Shown here in pieces: positions 21,231-64,000 of a stretch of DNA of 64,000 nt. The position numbers and the translations under genes were made by a program. Position 1 is the stretch's first letter; each line of letters starts with the position of its first letter. The DNA is from Glycine soja (taxonomy: Eukaryota; Streptophyta; Magnoliopsida; Fabales; Fabaceae). The stretch covers positions 45,501,534 through 45,565,533 of the forward strand of contig NC_041009.1 of NCBI RefSeq assembly GCF_004193775.1, in the 5' to 3' direction. The notes under the pieces were generated by a model, which saw nothing but the letters and a program-made list of their open reading frames with translations, had not been told where the DNA came from and made no database searches.

Positions 21231-24200
21231 TTAATCATGATGTTTATCATCATCCACATCGTTTATGACTTCTTCAGTATTATTATCCTGTTCCATGAAA
21301 TCTTTTGCATCGTCACCATCGGCTGGAGCTGCATCCTCCGGTCCATTTTTGCTCGCATCGGCGGACCCTGTGGCATTAGCCACATTTTGTTGCTTATCCA
21401 TCATCCCAGACAAGGCTAGAGTCGGAGACCATTCAAGAACATCATCAATGATGTTAGACACCCTCTTCTGGTACCTGCAAAGCAACATGTAACAGTTAGA
21501 AAAACCAACTACAAACAGTTTTCCTTTTATGGGTTTATAGATCCAACTAGAAAGGAATTTAAGCTGAAAATGGATGGATAAATTCCATCCACTATATTTA
21601 GGACTTGCCTTGCTCTGGCAGCTTCATCGGGTGCATGATGCCTCAGCAATAATATGAACAGCACAGCTACCCCAGCATAGAAAAGTCTTGTTGTCCACTT
21701 GGGCTTTTCCTCTTCATCTTTCTTAGGCCAAAATCTGAACAACTCCCGCAGTGTTGCTTCCTCGGCAAGGATGTTAGGGAAAAACCAGATTCGCTTTCCA
21801 AGAATAATATATAAAGCCCCAAATATTGTACCTCTTACTACAATATTAAAACATAAAACATGAGGCCCAAGGAAGCACTGAAGCAGAATGTGGTGCACTT
21901 AATAAGCATATTTCAGACAATTAGCCACCTCTAATAAAAAATTAATTTCTAAAAAAAAATGTATATGGTTGAGTATGATTCTAATGAGACTAGATGCATG
22001 TATAGCTAGGTATGCCTTAGGTATTAGATAGATCATTTCCCTCCCAAAAAAATGACAATTTTTCAGTTATATTTAGGGATTTTGGATATTTTTAACCTTT
22101 CAATTTTTCCATGATTGTTTCTCCATATTTTAATTAGACCCATTCATCCTTGCTTGGGAAATGTAAAAGGCAAGTTTGAAAATTTATTTTATTGTAGATG
22201 TTTTCACAACAATATATAAATATGAACCCTGGTACAGCGGTAAAGTTGTGTCTTGGTGACTTGTTGGTCATGGGTTCGAATCCGGAAACAGCCTCTTTGC
22301 ATATGCAAGGGTAAGGCTGCGTACAACATCCCTCCCCCATACCTTCGCATAGCGAAGAGCCTCCGGGCAATGGGGTACGAAGTTTTATATAAATATTGTA
22401 TATTCATTTATAGTATTTAAAAAATCATATTAACACATTCATATGTTCAACTTTTAAAATCGAGGTACTTTGTGTTGGTAATAAAGTACCAAAGCCATAT
22501 TCATGCAACATATCAGAGGGTAATTAAACTAGGCAAAAACAATCAAATATTAAAGGAAAGAAAACCTTACTCAAAAGTAGAGAGAGAATGAGGAAAAGGA
22601 TCCCGGCACATGAGTAAAGTATCAATAGCTTGCAGCGATGAGGGTACACAGGAAATAAGCAAATAGCCAATGTTAACACAGGCCAGAAAAACGAGAGGAG
22701 TGTCTGCCAAAGTGGATGGCGTTTTACAAACGTCCATGCAAAAAAAGCATCATTTTCAGAAAATACTTGTTCCTGCCAAAGACAATCAAATTGTTAGATT
22801 CAAACACAGAAAGAAACCTAATCGCGTAAACTGCAGAGGAGAAAAAACCATACAATATGATGGTTTTAACATAGAAAATGCATTTTCTCCTAAAAAAAAC
22901 ATAGAAAATGCATTTAAACACCACAAATACACCTTACAATTGTCTCGGTATATGATATGATGAGTCATACACATATATCAAGCAAAAAAATAGACTCATC
23001 TAAGAGCATTCAGCCTTAGAGAAGGTTGTGGTCACCAGAATGTGGCTGGAAACAAACAGAACTCAACCAGAAACAAAAGAGAAGGTTATGGTCATCGGAA
23101 AAGGTTTACCGTCACAGGAAAACTGTCAGATAAGAGGGTCTCCAATGACAGTGGGTGAGTATCCTTCTGAGCTCAGAGTGTGGATGTTTCAAAACTGAGA
23201 GGGAAACTAGTAAAAGACCTAACTTTCATTTAAGGTCTGAAAAGGGAGTAAAATCTCATTTTTACCCCCTAAAAAAACCCCAAAATGACACTGGAAAGGG
23301 GCAAAACATTCTACTGTGGCTTTTCAGTAGCAGCCTAGGGCTGCTCCACTCCACAAGAGCACTTTAGCACCACTATTAATAACTATGAATTCATCAGGTT
23401 ATCCATTTCTCAACATAGCACAAGTAACTATATCAGGCATAGGCAGACCTAAGCCGTCCATTGAGAGTGACCATAAGTTTCCAACATAGAAAACTTCCCC
23501 TTATTATTAGCTTTCTCTTTGAACAGTATAGTAATATGATAATCGGCTATTCGCCAAATGTAGTTCTCTCTTAAAACACTTCAATCAATTCATCCTATAG
23601 ACTCTCCCCATAATTCGATCTTGGTTCCAACCCTCATCCTGTAGAAGCGATCTGAGAAACCTAATCCTCATCCCACCAAACCGGATAGGAAGAAAAAAAA
23701 AGGGGTTTTAACAGCTTCTGAGAATCGAAAAAGAAACATCAAACAGGTCAGTATTGCAGAGTGAGAAATTTCTGAGATATCGACAGATCCACATTCAAGC
23801 ACATACATATTGAACTTTCTGATGTAATCATTGCACGTCAATGATTGCAGAAAGAAGGCTCAAACTCGAAACCAAAAAAAAAAAACACTTACAGGGAAAA
23901 TTTCTAAATGTGCAGGCCAGGTAGACAGCTTTTTCTTCCCAGGACGAACAGTTTTTACAACACGATCACAGCGCACTAAAAGATTTTTTGCGAGTAGAAT
24001 GCTGGCAATCTCCTCTGTTTCCAAATTCCTATCTGATTCTAGAACGTCTTTGAGCTCCGGATGGTTTTTCAAGAAGCTCACAAAATCCTTCCCTCTAAAA
24101 TACTCAACACGCGTCTCCTGTAGAACAGCCCACCTTGAAACCAATTCCTTATGATCTCTAACCTTCTCAGCAAACACCTGGAACACATCTTTCTTGACAA

Positions 24201-37045: not shown

Positions 37046-38187
37046 ATATTAACACTGGCTAGATTACTATTGCAGGAAATTGTTATTCTGGCGCTTATTA
37101 AATACTTACTTTTTTTGCAATATAGGCTCCAAAAATGAATTGCATCTTTCTTCCAACAAATGGTAATGAGTCAAAATTGCTTTTCAGATACTTCAAATTT
37201 TTTTTTTTTGCCATGAAAGTTCCAAAAAGTGAATTGCATATTTTATTTCACAATATATTCCAACAAATAGTAGTGCAGAAAGAGTTCCCAAACATTGTAG
37301 ATATCTGGAGCACACAAGAGGTGTTGCTTTCAGAATAGAAAGAACTACGCTCTTGAAGGATCTCCAAGTAACAATATGTCGTACTTTGAGACCCCTCATC
37401 AACTAACCAAATCAGCAACACAATCAAGGGAAAAAATCTTCTCGTATCAATGAAAAAATCAACTAAATAAGTGTTTATCCTTGCGAGAATGTCTGGACTT
37501 GATGAATCCTTGTATCAATGAAAAAATCAACTAAATAAATGTGCATCCTGTCTCCCATAGGTGGTCCTGTGTATATATGACATATGCTCCAGCCCCCTCC
37601 TTGCAAAATTTGAACTTTGCATTGAAATCTGAGGCCTCTTTTATTAACATCATGATTCAAAAGGGTTTGCCTAATCTATCGGACCAAATCTGCTTCATTC
37701 CCCAGCAGAGGCTAAACAAGTGCAAGAGACACAAACCATAAAAACAATAAACCAATCAAAAATCATCTCTTCATATGACTTCTAAGATAGTTAACTTCCA
37801 ATCAAAATAGTTAAAAAGCAATTTTAATCCCAAGTATTTTGAAGATAGTTACTTTAAAAGCTATGATCTTTTTTTTATTATAATTGATGAATTTGATCCC
37901 TCAACCTAGTATTTAAAGTTCAACAAAGAATGACTAAATTCACCAAGTATACAAGGGTCAAAATAAGAGTTACCAATTTATAGAAGACACAAAATCATCT
38001 TTTGACCAAAATTTAACTATACCCTTCTAAAATAGGATTTTATAAAATAGTTTATTCAATAACAGAACCAATGAACACAAACAGCATAACAAGATTTGAT
38101 GTGAGGGAGAAAAAGAAACTTTACCACAACAAGTCCCTCAGCAAGATCCACCAAAGCCCATGCTCCAAGGAGAGCCAGATCCAAGGA

Positions 38188-39036
38188 TCACAGGCCACAG
38201 AGGACAAGCTTGGAAGCAGGAAACACCAAACCTGAAAAGAAAACAAGGGAAATGGTGAGCGAGTTCTTTGAACACCAAGTGAGTGGCCTCCACTTGATCT
38301 CAACACTTGAGCTCTTCATCCTCTTCCCACTACTACTACTATTAGGCTCCTTAGAAAGATCAAAGCTTGCCCCTTTCATCCTCAACTCCTGAATGCACCT
38401 TGTCACAGCCCTCCCATCATTCCTCTCTCTTTGCAAGTGCCCCCACACCTTCCAATACCTATGCACCTTCACCTGCAAAGGGAGATATATAAAGTTGGTC
38501 TAGTGGTGAAGGAAGAAGTAAAGGGGAGAGAATTCGCAGGTTCGAATCCTCTTGCTAGCAAAAACTAAAAATACTAACACCTAAAAGTTGCCGATATAAA
38601 AAAATAAAAATAAAAACTTCACCTGCACAAGAACCACAAACACAAAGGAGGTGCAAAGGGACACCATGGAGGGAAGCCACCACTTGTGACAAACACTATG
38701 GTGGGCTTGTTGTTGGGCTTTGGCCCAAGACGTGAAAAGGAGGGTTAGGAAGAAGGCATGGAAGATGAAGAAGAATGAGGAGAGTTGAAAGAGTTCAGCT
38801 TTGATGGTATCCATTCTTGTCTCCTTGTGAGCAATGCGTTTGGAGAAGAGCTCTTCCTCTCTTTGCCATAGCTTCAGGAGCAAGAGGTGCCCGGGGCTCT
38901 CGGAGATTTCGGTTAGAGGGTGGTCCTCTATGGCCTCAATCATGTTGCTTGTCATGGAACACAACACGTTCTTGTGATGATTATGCTCTTGGTCTACTGG
39001 GATTTCTACTATGTGGGTGTCTTTTGTTTCACCCAT
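38188..39036 (-). CDS. Uncharacterised plant membrane protein; coding intron made by a SINE
   Basis: Minus-strand coding exons 39036-38623 (138 codons) and 38472-38188 (95 codons with stop) join in phase 0 to give 232 aa. Residues 1-80 are soluble and acidic, containing SMTSNMIEAIEDHPLTEISE and a charged stretch (KLWQREEELFSKRIAHKETR). Hydrophobic spans follow at about 86-105 (LSSFFFIFHAFFLTLLFTSW), 120-138 (MVSLCTSFVFVVLVQ) and 212-229 (SLVFFSGLVFPASKLVL). The loop between spans two and three is basic (VKVHRYWKVWGHLQRERNDG). I know no function for this family. ATG 39036 was chosen because the upstream in-frame sequence has only non-ATG codons. The sole coding intron (38622-38473, 150 nt) consists almost entirely of a SINE. 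Without splicing, a stop in the intron would truncate the protein after the second span (about 149 aa). The 5' UTR carries a CT/GA microsatellite. Confidence 0.82.
38467..38627 (+). mobile_element. tRNA-derived SINE with 11-bp TSD that supplies both splice junctions
   Basis: The body at 38478-38616 (139 bp) contains an A-box-like ttggtctagtggtgaagg (about 38495-38512) and a B-box ggttcgaatcc (38539-38549). It ends in an A-rich tail (ataaaaaaataaaaataaaa). The 11-mer cttcacctgca flanks it exactly at 38467-38477 and 38617-38627. On the minus strand each copy reads tgcag^gtgaag. The upstream copy provides the GT donor and the downstream copy the AG acceptor of the 150-nt intron of the membrane-protein gene. 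It is unrelated in sequence to the SINE at 22224. Confidence 0.85.
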
Positions 39037-53417: not shown

Positions 53418-56400
53418 ATGCATCTCTACAATGCATGGCTTCCGCCGCCGGTGGCGTCTCAGACCTCCGGCGAGCGCGACTCCTTCGCCCGCCTCATCGC
53501 CGCCGTCAACTCCTCCTTCCGCTCCGACGATCCCGATTCCGTCTACTCTACTCTCAAATTCATCTCCGTCCTCGACCTGTCAGTTTCACCACTCCTCAAT
53601 TTCCCAATCTCCGCCTTCTCCTTTTCCCTAATTCCTTCTTCAATTTTATCTTACTTTTTGCTTTCGCTGTATTTCTCTCCCGTACGGCTCAATTCGGAAG
53701 ATTCTCGAATATCGTTTCGATTGATTTTCCGCTGTTTTTTTTAGCAAGTGCTGTGGTGCGAGGTTTTGGAAAATGATGTTGAATTTGTGATCGAAGGTTG
53801 CGAAGTGTTGTTAGAAGTTACTGAAAGGCTTAGGAGTGTGAGATTCATGGTTCTGTGAGCAGTTTAGCTGATTATGTGAATGGAAAAAAATAGTTTAGGA
53901 GAGTGATTTAATTGGTTTAACATGTTTTATTCTGCTTAATTGCAAGGAAATGATGATTTTTTTTCCTTTCAAAACAAGTTAATAAGATTAAGTGATTTCT
54001 TTCACTGTGTGTTCTGAAGATATAGTATGCTTACTTAACTCTTATCAGTATCAGTGATTTCGTATATTGTATATTAACTGGCCGAGGTTGTGTAATACTG
54101 TTATTGTTTGCTTCGGTGTATGTTATCCAGTGGAATACTTTTGTTAGAAGCAAGGTTTTAAAATGCAGTTGCGGTTGCAGTTTTGTTGCTTTCCTTTACA
54201 TTGCGGGAAATAGCGGATAAATGTGGTCGCAGTGATTCCAAAAACCTTGATGTTGTGTCTGAAATTGTGGTCACGGACCTTTTTTTAAAAACCTTGGTTA
54301 TAAGTAATGGCTCTATTTTTACTTCCAAAACTGCATAATATCTAAGTAGTGGACGTGAGTGTTTTTTTTTTCACTCATGGCTTGTATCCAGATGGAGTTG
54401 GTTGTTGGGTTGAAATCTAACTTTTTACGTGTGTTGTGCAGTTTCATAAAGGCAAAAAGTGATTTAGCTTTGGAGGATGTTCGCAACCTTATCCATAAGG
54501 GCCTTGAGATATTTCATGTGTCCCGTAATAAGCTTTATGCTCAGGTGATGCTGCATTTTGTCTTGGATGAGATGCAGAGTTTTCTTGTTCTTTTTATGTC
54601 TTGGGTTGCTCTTAAATGATTGTGCCATTTTTTGTTTATTAGGTTAGATGGGGAAATTTCTTAGTCAGACTACTCAACAAATATAGGAAAAAGATTTCAC
54701 TGACTACTGAATGGAGGCCACTGTATGATACACTGGTTAGCACACATTTTACTAGGTGAGTTTTGTATTAGTACTGTTGCTGCTTCAGCCTTAATTGGTT
54801 TAAAGTTATTCTGTTCTGTACTTAATTTGTGATTCTTAGTTAGCTCAATGAAAGGAAAAATAAAATAAAAGAAGGCAAGTCCTGAGGATTTAATCCTTGA
54901 CATGGCAATAAATCCACAAGTTACCTTTGTTATAAGCTTAAGTTTGACTTTTGAATTCGGTGTTATATTTTTTTCCATTTACTTTTGAAATTTAATAATC
55001 TCTGGGCTCTTGCTAAATCAAAATATGGAGTTGAATTTATATTGAATAATTTATTTCTTTTCTGCATATGAGATTTCAAAATTTGAGGTTGGGGATTTTG
55101 AATTATATTATTGCTGCAGAAGTACAGGACCAGAAGGTTGGAGAATAAGACAGCGACATTTTGAAACTATAACTTCCCTTGTTCAGTCCTGCCGGAGATT
55201 CTTCCCATCAGGTTCTGCCTTTGAGATATGGTCTGAGTTTAAGTGAGTGCTCTGGCGTTGTTTCTGCATAATGTTGAGTTATTATGAGAGTTTGTCTTTT
55301 ATTTATTTTGTACTTGATATTGATGCTGAGCCGAGTTAAAGTGAATTTTCTGTGAATCAATACTTCCAGTGAGTGGAATAATGCTGGACCTGTATTAGTA
55401 GGACTTTTATATTCTTTTTCCTACTTTGAGCTTTTGATTTAATTTGTTTTTTGTTCTTAATTCCTTTTCTTTGGGTTGGATAAATACTTTCGGTGAGTGG
55501 AATCATGCTGGACCTGTATTAGGACTTTTATATTATTTTTTCAACTTTGAGCTTTTGATTTAATTTGTTTTCTTCTTAATTCCTTTTCTTTGGGTTGGAT
55601 AATTTGTAGATTTTTATTGCAAAACCCATGGCATAATTCATCCTTTGAAGGTTCTGGCTTTGCAAGACTGTTTCTCCCCACAAATCTGGATAATCAGGCC
55701 TTTTTTACACAGTAAGCATAAAATTCTAAGGATATTTTTTTGGTGTGATATCTGACATGACTTCCTGCGAATTAAATTTTATAATTGGATTGGCAGGGAT
55801 TGGATAACAGAGTGTATAGAGTTGTGGGAATCTATACCAAATTGCCAATTCTGGAACAATCAATGGGCAGATGTTATTGCTCGTGTTGTAAAAAATTACC
55901 ACAATGTTGACTGGGAGTGCTTCTTGCCTTTGCTTTTTGCTAGATACTTGAATATGTTTGAGGTGAGCATGTAAACTCTTCTAGCAATGTTGGTTTTATT
56001 CACACTTTGATTGAATGTTTTGGCATTGGACGTAGATTAATTGAAAATGAATAGGAAATAGATATAATCTATCTCTCTGAAGACTCTTATTCTGAAGCTT
56101 AAATCTTGTCTTCTTTTTCCTACTTCTTTTTTAAATTAATATTGATAACCTTGTTTGTTATCGCAACTGAGATTTTAGCTAAACATCTAAAAGATGTTTT
56201 TTTTAACACTTTCAACTGTTGAAACATAATTAATTACATTCAAGCGTTTTAGTGGTTAATACTGAATATTAAAAGAATGAGGTATCTTTTATGGATTAAT
56301 GCTGGATGTTAGGGTTTTTCTCATTTATTAATTATACATGCACACCTTATTTTTTTCCTTTGCTTTTTGAGTTTGCATAAGTAAATTGGATGTACCTGCT

Positions 56401-62400: not shown

Positions 62401-64000
62401 TCATAGTTCCTTATCTTGTCATGGTTTGTTTCCCTTTCCCCAGTTAGCTAGGATTATGATTAGTATAAATAGGGGTTAGAGTGCTCTTGTTTTTATGTAA
62501 CCTTAAACATATTAATACATTCTAATACATCTGTTATATCAATTCAGTGTTTCAATCTCTTCTATCTCTGTTTCTCCCTCTTCCCTAAAAACTCTACAAT
62601 TTCAACAGTATCTCATTCCATAATCTAACATGCTTGCTTTAGTTAAGACTGCTACAGTACTTTTGTATGCCTGATTGAAATTTCTCGTATGATCCAGGCT
62701 TGCTGGGAAATCTCTAGTGAAGCTGATCAAGAGATGGCCATCTATGATTTCAAAATGTGTTATCACTCTTACCCATAACTTGCAGGATACCAATGCCAAG
62801 GAATATGCAGTGTTGGGGTCCTGTTCAGTCCTTGCCTCACAAACAGTACTCAAGCATTTGACAACGGTGATTGTCAAGGATGATGTTCTTAAAATTGTCT
62901 TTTTGGATGGTTAATACTTTCATGTCTCATTATTTTCTTTGATTTCAGGATCCAAAGTCATTCTCTTCATTTATCTTGGCAATTCTTTCAAGGTAATCTC
63001 TTTTTTCTGTTTGTTTTACATGAAAATTTTTGTACTGTGTAACATTAGAGATTAGAGAATAATACTTTCCTGGTTTCTTCTTGAAGTTCGCATCATGAAT
63101 CCTTGAAAGCTCAGAAAGCAATTAATGAGGTAAACTTATCCTGCATCTGATTATTACAGTTTCATTATGTGCTTTATATTGTTTAACTTTTCCTTGCTTT
63201 CAACAGCTTTTTGTGAAGTACAACATTCAATTTTCTGGAGTATCTAGAAGCTTTTTCAGGATCTCAGACAAAGAAAATCATACTGGTGGGCTGGGGTTTT
63301 CAGATTTGGTTTCTCAGATTGGCTCTATGAGTTTTGATTCTACTGGCTTGCATTGGAGGTAAATGTTAATTCGTTTAGTTTGAAAATCATTTGACACTAA
63401 TGATAGAATAGTTGCTCTTGCATATTTAGATTCTGTCTCTGCTATTTCTTATTTATTTGTTTTAGTTTATTGGGAAAAATCCAAGTCCCACATTGGCTAG
63501 AGAGATAAGGCCAAGATAGAGTATATAATTGAGGTGCAACCCTCATCTCATGAGCTAGCTTTTGGTGTTGAGTTAGGACCAAACTCACATTCTAAGATGA
63601 TATCAGAGCCTATCCTAGATCCATTAAACGAGACACCCGCCATGTGATCCACACACCAAACCCAATTGTGTTGGGTGTGTTGGAAAAAACTCAAGTCCCA
63701 CATCGGCTAGAGATAAGGCCACAATAGAATATATAAGTGGGAGGAAATCTTCACTCTATGAGCTAGCTTTTGGGATTGAGTTAGGCACAAATCCCACATT
63801 CTAAGACATGCTGCCTCTCAATTTGTTAACTAGTTTAAACATCATGTTTGTAGATTCTTTTGCATATTTAAAACATTGATTTTAATAGTTTCAGTTCTTC
63901 AGGTATAACTTGATGGCTAATAGAGTGCTGCTCCTGCTGGCTTTGGCATCTAGGAACCATCCAAATTCATCTTCTAAAATTCTGAGTGAAACTGCTGGTT
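53418..64000 (+). CDS. PA200: Proteasome activator subunit 4 (PA200/BLM10), 3' end beyond window
   Basis: PA200 is a large nuclear HEAT-repeat protein that caps the 20S proteasome core and stimulates ATP-independent peptide and acetyl-histone degradation. Visible exons, all in phase: 53418-53578, 54442-54544, 54643-54755, 55120-55242, 55610-55711, 55797-55962, 56620-56736, 56836-56903, 57011-57112, 57189-57405, 57704-57940, 58026-58153, 58269-58386, 58473-58691, 58774-58929, 59068-59144, 59249-59454, 59773-59986, 60081-60160, 60259-60376, 60468-60638, 62698-62866, 62949-62992, 63087-63129, 63207-63358 and 63903-64000. They encode about 1167 of the roughly 1800 residues usual in plants. Supporting motifs include EWRPLYDTLV, GPEGWRIRQRHFETITSLVQ, YYHPSNGGRWTYALERFLFH, RPRWALIDKAFMHNTWRSSQ and LIKRWPSMISKCVITLTHNL. 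The N-terminus begins MHLYNAWLPPPVASQTSGER and exon 1 is strongly GC-rich. Introns 1, 4, 21 and 25 host repeats. No lesion is seen. The C-terminal domain and the activation motif lie outside the window. Confidence 0.97.
54143..54304. mobile_element. hAT-type MITE in PA200 intron 1
   Basis: The body at 54151-54296 starts caaggttttaaaa and ends with the inverse, ttttaaaaaccttg. Flanks are gttagaag and gttataag, an 8-bp target duplication with one substitution, the length typical of hAT elements. The interior (gcagttgcggttgcag ... attgtggtcacggacc) lacks coding potential. The element sits in the middle of the 863-bp first intron. Confidence 0.75.
55361..55602. repeat. Tandem duplication of about 120 bp in PA200 intron 4
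   Basis: The segment 55361-55484 (tacttccagtgagtggaata ...) is repeated at 55485-55602 with a few substitutions and small deletions. The second copy ends eight bases before the exon at 55610, so its pyrimidine-rich part (ccttttctttgggttgg) now forms the upstream part of the acceptor region. The first copy keeps an equivalent tract. Confidence 0.93.
60639..62697 (+). other. 2.06-kb intron 21 of PA200
   Basis: This is the largest visible intron of the gene. It contains a GC-richer, repeat-like stretch (about 61010-61420) with words such as gcagtgtagcggagcttcc, and an LTR-like segment near its 3' end (62309-62607). No exon is supported inside it. The open frame at 61500-61694 is just pyrimidine-rich sequence. 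Confidence 0.75.
62309..62607 (+). mobile_element. Solo-LTR-like segment in PA200 intron 21
   Basis: The segment begins near ttagaacatgagagaatatt. It carries a core-promoter-like tagtataaataggggttaga at 62461-62480 and continues with ttcaatctcttctatctctg. It ends tacaatttcaaca. Promoter, then pyrimidine-rich leader, then a CA end is the plan of a plant copia-type LTR. No second LTR, primer-binding site or clear target duplication was found, so a solo LTR is an inference. Confidence 0.5.
63468..63808 (+). mobile_element. TRIM (miniature LTR retrotransposon) in PA200 intron 25
   Basis: Two direct repeats of about 130 bp, 63468-63597 and 63678-63808, share tcaagtcccacatnggctag, gataaggcca and gagctagcttttggg.ttga, and end ...cacattctaaga. 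The second copy has canonical TG...CA ends (tgttgg ... ctaagaca). Directly after the first copy lies tgatatcagagc (63598-63609), one change from tggtatcagagc, the primer-binding site complementary to initiator tRNA-Met. Only about 70 bp separate the site from the second repeat, so there is no coding capacity. A clear target duplication was not seen. The element is in the sense orientation, within the intron between exons 25 and 26. Confidence 0.85.

Follow-up and report, generated by a model that had tools for sequence, protein, structure and literature searches.

Within the window (the whole 64-kb stretch that was analysed, G000:C8:45501534-45565533), a minus-strand gene is interrupted by a tRNA-derived SINE that lies antisense to it, and the features of this locus and of its counterparts elsewhere in the genome are collected in Table 1. 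Excising 38622-38473 gives a frame of 232 open codons that reads VVLVQ/VKVHRYW across the junction, which agrees with the frame that an earlier, sequence-only reading of this DNA had expected before the insertion (LVQVKVHRYW). The product of the host gene has no Pfam match above the cut-off, and no member of the gene family was found in viral or prokaryote contigs. The homologue search found 412 proteins and listed 120, of which 18 were aligned with the query (19 sequences in total); in this protein-level comparison the LVQ/VKV region is ungapped in 18 of the 18 homologues. As far as sequence comparison tells, the predicted 232-codon frame is conserved in eudicots. Gene models of other plants (P0140, P0142, P0144 and P0146) have borders seemingly at the CAG/GTGAAG site or near the FSG/LVF site of the host gene, so that the CAG/GTGAAG site (38622-38623) and the 38232 site may be weak splice signals even without a SINE.

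Table 1. Features of the window locus, and further genes carrying the same SINE family (a slash marks a splice site).
Feature	Position	Strand or orientation	Details
Exon 1, coding part	38623..39036	-	138 codons, ATG at 39036
Exon 2, coding part	38188..38472	-	94 codons + stop
Target-site duplication, donor side	38617..38627	-	TGCAG/GTGAAG on gene strand; GT donor; intron start 38622
Target-site duplication, acceptor side	38467..38477	-	TGCAG/GTGAAG on gene strand; CAG acceptor; intron end 38473
Predicted new GT-AG intron, phase 0	38473..38622	-	150 nt, 65% A+T
tRNA-derived SINE insert	38478..38616	+	139 bp between duplication copies; antisense to the minus-strand gene
SINE A box TGGTCTAGTGG	38496-38506	+	by box consensus
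SINE B box GGTTCGAATCC	38539-38549	+	by box consensus
SINE A-rich end	38595-38616	+	
Alternative intron implied by A0A0R0J6M0	38232..38622	-	391 nt, donor 38622, acceptor TTTTCTTTTCAG inside exon 2, frame-shifting
Second intron of A0A0R0J6M0	37712..38124	-	downstream of the main stop codon
ACA-type Ca2+-ATPase	C17	SINE antisense	sister C5: 96.2%, 0 gaps
F-box/kelch gene	C3	SINE antisense	sister C19: 93.6%, 0 gaps
LIN-like E3 ligase	C9	SINE antisense	sister C15: 95.8%, 0 gaps
11S-type cupin gene	C11	SINE antisense	sister C15: 89.1%, 0 gaps

The window contains exactly two copies of the 11-mer CTTCACCTGCA (38467-38477 and 38617-38627), against an expectation of 0.02 in shuffled sequence and with two copies in none of 100 shuffles. 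Both the exact 11-mer on either side of the SINE and the reading of each copy on the gene strand, with a GT donor in the first and a CAG acceptor in the second, were part of the sequence-only reading and are borne out; AGGT lies within the duplication, which supplies both splice sites of the predicted intron. The 139-bp insert is a tRNA-derived SINE as had been proposed, with a small correction at its boundary, since most copies of the family begin GGAGATATAAGG and the SINE proper thus starts at 38481, three bases (AAG) off the duplication. The acceptor stretch CTCCCTTTGCAG is made up of the SINE end, this linker and the duplication. Most oriented copies of the family start with GGAGATATAAGGTTGG and end near AACATTTGCCGATAAAAA; 40 scored matches were found in the genome (1,013,641,977 bases), and the 17-base SINE end ACCAANYTTATATCTCC is present at 189 sites compared with 5 in the reversed control. 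Of the 30 loci that the family search gave, 22 have a duplication of at least 7 bp, the shortest of which may be due to chance. With its boxes, A-rich end, flanking duplication and copy number, the element is a multi-copy, dispersed tRNA-derived SINE, and the genome-wide search recovered both the family and its defined ends, a point that had been left for confirmation.

ARAGORN found no tRNA, and the three Rfam matches were weak and all under gathering scores. The search of viral contigs for copies of the SINE gave 0 matches; 81 viral-contig stretches were rejected as relatives (best similarity E 0.02, mostly over the tRNA-like part), as was one match that looks like a tRNA gene with unrelated DNA behind it. 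The copy at L106 (G000:C3:1027202) and that in the window have in common the start GGGAGATATATAA and a long TAAAAATAAAAA tail, in the manner of a subfamily. Elsewhere in the window there is a second tRNA-like repeat at about 22213-22340 on the plus strand, with a B box at 22273 and a body that seems to resemble the Au SINE family, and short direct duplications, spaced at about 122 and 210 bp, are seen at 55381-55559 and 63482-63806.

The predicted intron has 65% A+T against 52% in the flanking exon, and its U-rich start corresponds to the A-rich tail of the antisense SINE, a correspondence that the sequence-only reading had pointed out and that is confirmed as composition, its use by the spliceosome being presumed. 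If the insert is retained, translation halts within the SINE after VKFLFLFFYIGNF and a truncated protein results. We infer that the SINE is spliced out as a 150-nt intron.

The state before the insertion is preserved in the homoeologue at C18:6623047-6623754, which has one uninterrupted frame with 97% identity, no stops and no SINE, and a single copy of the target, CTTCACTTGCA, with one base different. The rejoined C8 site aligns with it at 96 of 101 bases, ungapped across the empty site, and this answers the earlier suggestion that the soybean homoeologue be compared: both intron and SINE are absent there. Most simply, the insertion in the window would be later than the separation of C8 and C18. 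The two copies differ overall by a Ks of 0.163 and a Ka of 0.015, with Ka 0.009, Ks 0.216 and three amino-acid changes in exon 1, and Ka 0.023, Ks 0.091 and five amino-acid changes in exon 2. Three of the five changes in exon 2 fall on the window side, as judged by eye against the outgroups of the protein alignment, so some loss of constraint in exon 2 is possible. The 236-aa protein P0001, from a contig of 1,234 bases, was not used as evidence for the C18 homoeologue, since it differs from the C18 frame and has residues in common with each of the C8 and C18 loci; it may be an assembly chimera or a real recombinant.

Protein records bear on how the splice sites are used. Exons of the window encode, without a difference, the protein of the G. 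max record A0A0R0J6M0 (P0089), which uses the predicted donor at 38622 but joins it to 38232 and not to 38473. It is the only record found with the tail from the 38232 acceptor. P0092, recorded from three sources, continues past the donor into SINE sequence, and since P0089 is encoded by the window exons and P0092 enters the SINE, the insertion is not confined to a single assembly. The SINE-side acceptor at 38473 may lose to the more pyrimidine-rich downstream acceptor at 38232. Among protein fragments, 0 of 39 matches represented the spliced window locus, in a database that shows only representatives of 90% clusters.

Introns of this kind seem to have come from the same SINE family in at least four further genes of the genome. 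The first of these was found at L103, a Ca2+-ATPase gene, among the 30 loci of the family search, and a search for the SINE end followed by AGGT within 15 bases gave 11 matches, compared with 3 in the reversed control. In five of the 11 the duplication bears AGGT and the joined frame is 186-399 aa long; these are an F-box/kelch gene (C3), a DnaJ-like gene (C4), a LIN-like gene (C9), a cupin gene (C11) and ACA (C17). The DnaJ-like candidate (L120, G000:C4:6478168) was set aside because its C6 homoeologue has an older intron at that place; here the SINE sits near the 3' end of the older intron and could supply a new acceptor. For the other four genes, sister-gene alignments over 312-313 rejoined bp per gene are free of gaps, and Pfam domains cross all four junctions. 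The ACA junction is also ungapped against the solved plant plasma-membrane Ca2+-ATPase sequence (8qmp), and the 11 closest ACA paralogues (72-99%) are all unbroken, only the C17 copy being split.

The remaining matches were rejected on several grounds. L127, with AGGT on both strands of its repeat, does not code; in L126, which perhaps has AGGT in its repeat, TAGGTGCAGTT is present three times, another duplication search gave a different repeat, and it is non-coding either way; and L118, L121, L123 and L125 have no convincing AGGT-bearing duplication. L101, which is not one of these matches, has an open stretch of 212 aa across its joined site, but its junction is 12 residues from the start in low-complexity sequence and its duplication lacks AGGT; L129-L132 were left aside. 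Two further search patterns brought no new coding case, one of them finding only the window copy and the other giving five matches, of which three were known, one (C10:15380235) was a chance match with no SINE and one (C12:43789405) was a SINE copy that has an AGGT-bearing duplication but lacks a convincing coding frame.

The introns of the window and of the four further genes are alike in length (127-150 nt), in being GT-AG and in composition (64-70% A+T). In each, a U-rich stretch derived from the SINE tail follows soon after the donor, and the family end CTTATATCTCC, which reads CTTTATATATCTCC in the copy of the window, stands just ahead of the AG supplied by the duplication, which is exact and 11-13 bp long. 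The targets in the window and in ACA have TGCAGGTGAA in common. The cupin insertion is also found in the near-identical C11b, about 30 kb from C11a, and in C12, and is lacking in C15; all three copies keep GT and AG though the SINE bodies have changed. The last Glycine doubling took place about 13 million years ago, and if C11 and C12 are homoeologues of that event, the cupin intron is older than the doubling. In the other four cases the sister copy lacks the insertion.

In our view, with a probability of about 0.9, a SINE entered an uninterrupted exon of the window gene and its target duplication provides both splice sites, the same family having acted likewise in at least four other genes. 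The element would have inserted at TGCAGGTGAAG in the coding exon, probably by target-primed reverse transcription, and duplication of the target would have turned the GT of the first copy into a donor and the CAG of the second into an acceptor, exact excision leaving the frame unchanged, as can be read from the DNA. In the antisense orientation the A-rich tail of the SINE makes the start of the intron U-rich and the 5' part makes its end pyrimidine-rich, both features presumably being used by the spliceosome. The empty C18 homoeologue and the SINE family support the model of the sequence-only reading, intron gain by insertion at a duplicated proto-splice site. That the SINE instead replaced or filled an ancestral intron, which the homoeologue then lost by retroposition of spliced RNA, is hardly credible. 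Exact intron loss by way of spliced RNA is a known process, named also in PMC3443670; the C4 candidate does have its SINE in an older intron. However, the rejoined site in the window keeps no base of an older intron, which would therefore have had no body, and the 11 closest ACA paralogues are all without the intron. It is more conceivable, if still unlikely, that the SINE simply disables the gene, being retained or misspliced to 38232 so that a truncated or frame-shifted protein is made and the function is carried by the C18 homoeologue. The frame-shifting 391-nt intron of the G. max record, the stop met inside the SINE on retention and the higher Ka/Ks of exon 2 than of exon 1 all point that way. 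Set against them are the 94 of 94 open codons of exon 2, with only five amino-acid differences from C18, the restriction of the alternative tail to one record, and the same exact arrangement in four other genes, including a Ca2+-ATPase that is open on both sides.

Given that arrangement in at least four other genes, an antisense copy of the SINE has the look of a prefabricated intron body, to which the target has only to add AGGT. We lean slightly towards regarding the family as an Introner, whose antisense copies would bring a U-rich start, a pyrimidine tract and a probable branch site, so that insertions at AGGT could become instant, frame-neutral introns, and would have done so repeatedly, from before to after the last Glycine doubling. 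It is also possible, at somewhat under even odds, that chance and survival suffice: the SINE would have no special aptitude, any insert of suitable length would do equally well, and insertions into coding sequence would be tolerated only where AGGT was duplicated. A few per cent of insertions should have AGGT in their duplication if this is about 12 bp long, there are non-coding copies whose duplications contain AGGT (L127 and L167), and this is the transposon-insertion model as set out in PMC3443670. Against it, four exact coding introns were found among the 189 end-bearing sites, compared with about 0.25 expected by our own estimate (189 copies, a coding share near 6%, half of the copies antisense and AGGT in about 4.5% of duplications, the window copy lying outside the search pattern), although the comparison is biased because introns may preserve a SINE end that other copies lose. 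The sense orientation gave 10 matches, of which five, read afresh, have no AGGT in the duplication and two lie at places of the antisense search (L118 and L127). Among the sampled copies of the family, L097 bears AGGT in the sense direction within its duplication but has no frame. An antisense bias of the intron-forming copies is thereby suggested.

According to the part of Gozashti et al. 2022 that was available (PMC9860276), Introners are mostly DNA-transposon-like, range from 5 to over 2,000 in a genome and include none in land plants, and in some families one splice site or both come from the duplicated target. That study kept Introner families of at least four and used a similarity filter of its own. 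The soybean SINE resembles Introners, as they are described there, in that one mobile family gives introns at several independent positions, here in five genes, and differs in that it is a retroposed tRNA-derived SINE, that its host is a flowering plant, and that introns account for at least five of about 189 end-intact copies, so that most copies are not introns. The tandem duplication of an exonic AGGT reported by Hellsten et al. 2011, as described in the available part of PMC3443670, likewise yields both splice sites with no change to the coding sequence; the source of the splice sites is the same, whereas the intron body is copied exon there and a SINE in soybean. That part of PMC3443670 also counts 35 gains by transposon insertion in Oryza, Drosophila, Oikopleura and Zea, and a 2014 study of grass introns (PMC4256211) holds that no transposable element had been linked with any proposed intron gain that is fixed in a species. 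No report of SINE introns in soybean was found by title in the literature searched, a scope that leaves most subscription journals outside. A p-SINE1-like intron in the rice CatA catalase gene was reportedly described by Iwamoto et al. in 1998 and 1999. There, as in soybean, a plant tRNA-derived SINE makes up a whole new intron of a coding gene; the rice intron is a single case in another lineage, whereas the soybean family has at least five, with exact duplications and with sister genes that have empty sites. The p-SINE1 intron is presumably an exception to the statement on grasses. Giroux et al. are said to have found in 1994 that maize Ds, a DNA transposon, was spliced as an intron in a laboratory allele. 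In both Ds and the soybean SINE an exonic transposable element is removed by splicing, as predicted for soybean, whereas the soybean insertions are natural and present in more than one soybean sequence source. How plant introns arise is unsettled, and five introns from one SINE family, with sister genes in the pre-insertion state, would offer a natural set of cases in which to follow when newborn introns arise, which targets they take, how they are spliced and how they decay. The kind of event is known from the p-SINE1 catalase intron, maize Ds and Introners; what is new is its repeated occurrence through one SINE family in a land plant.
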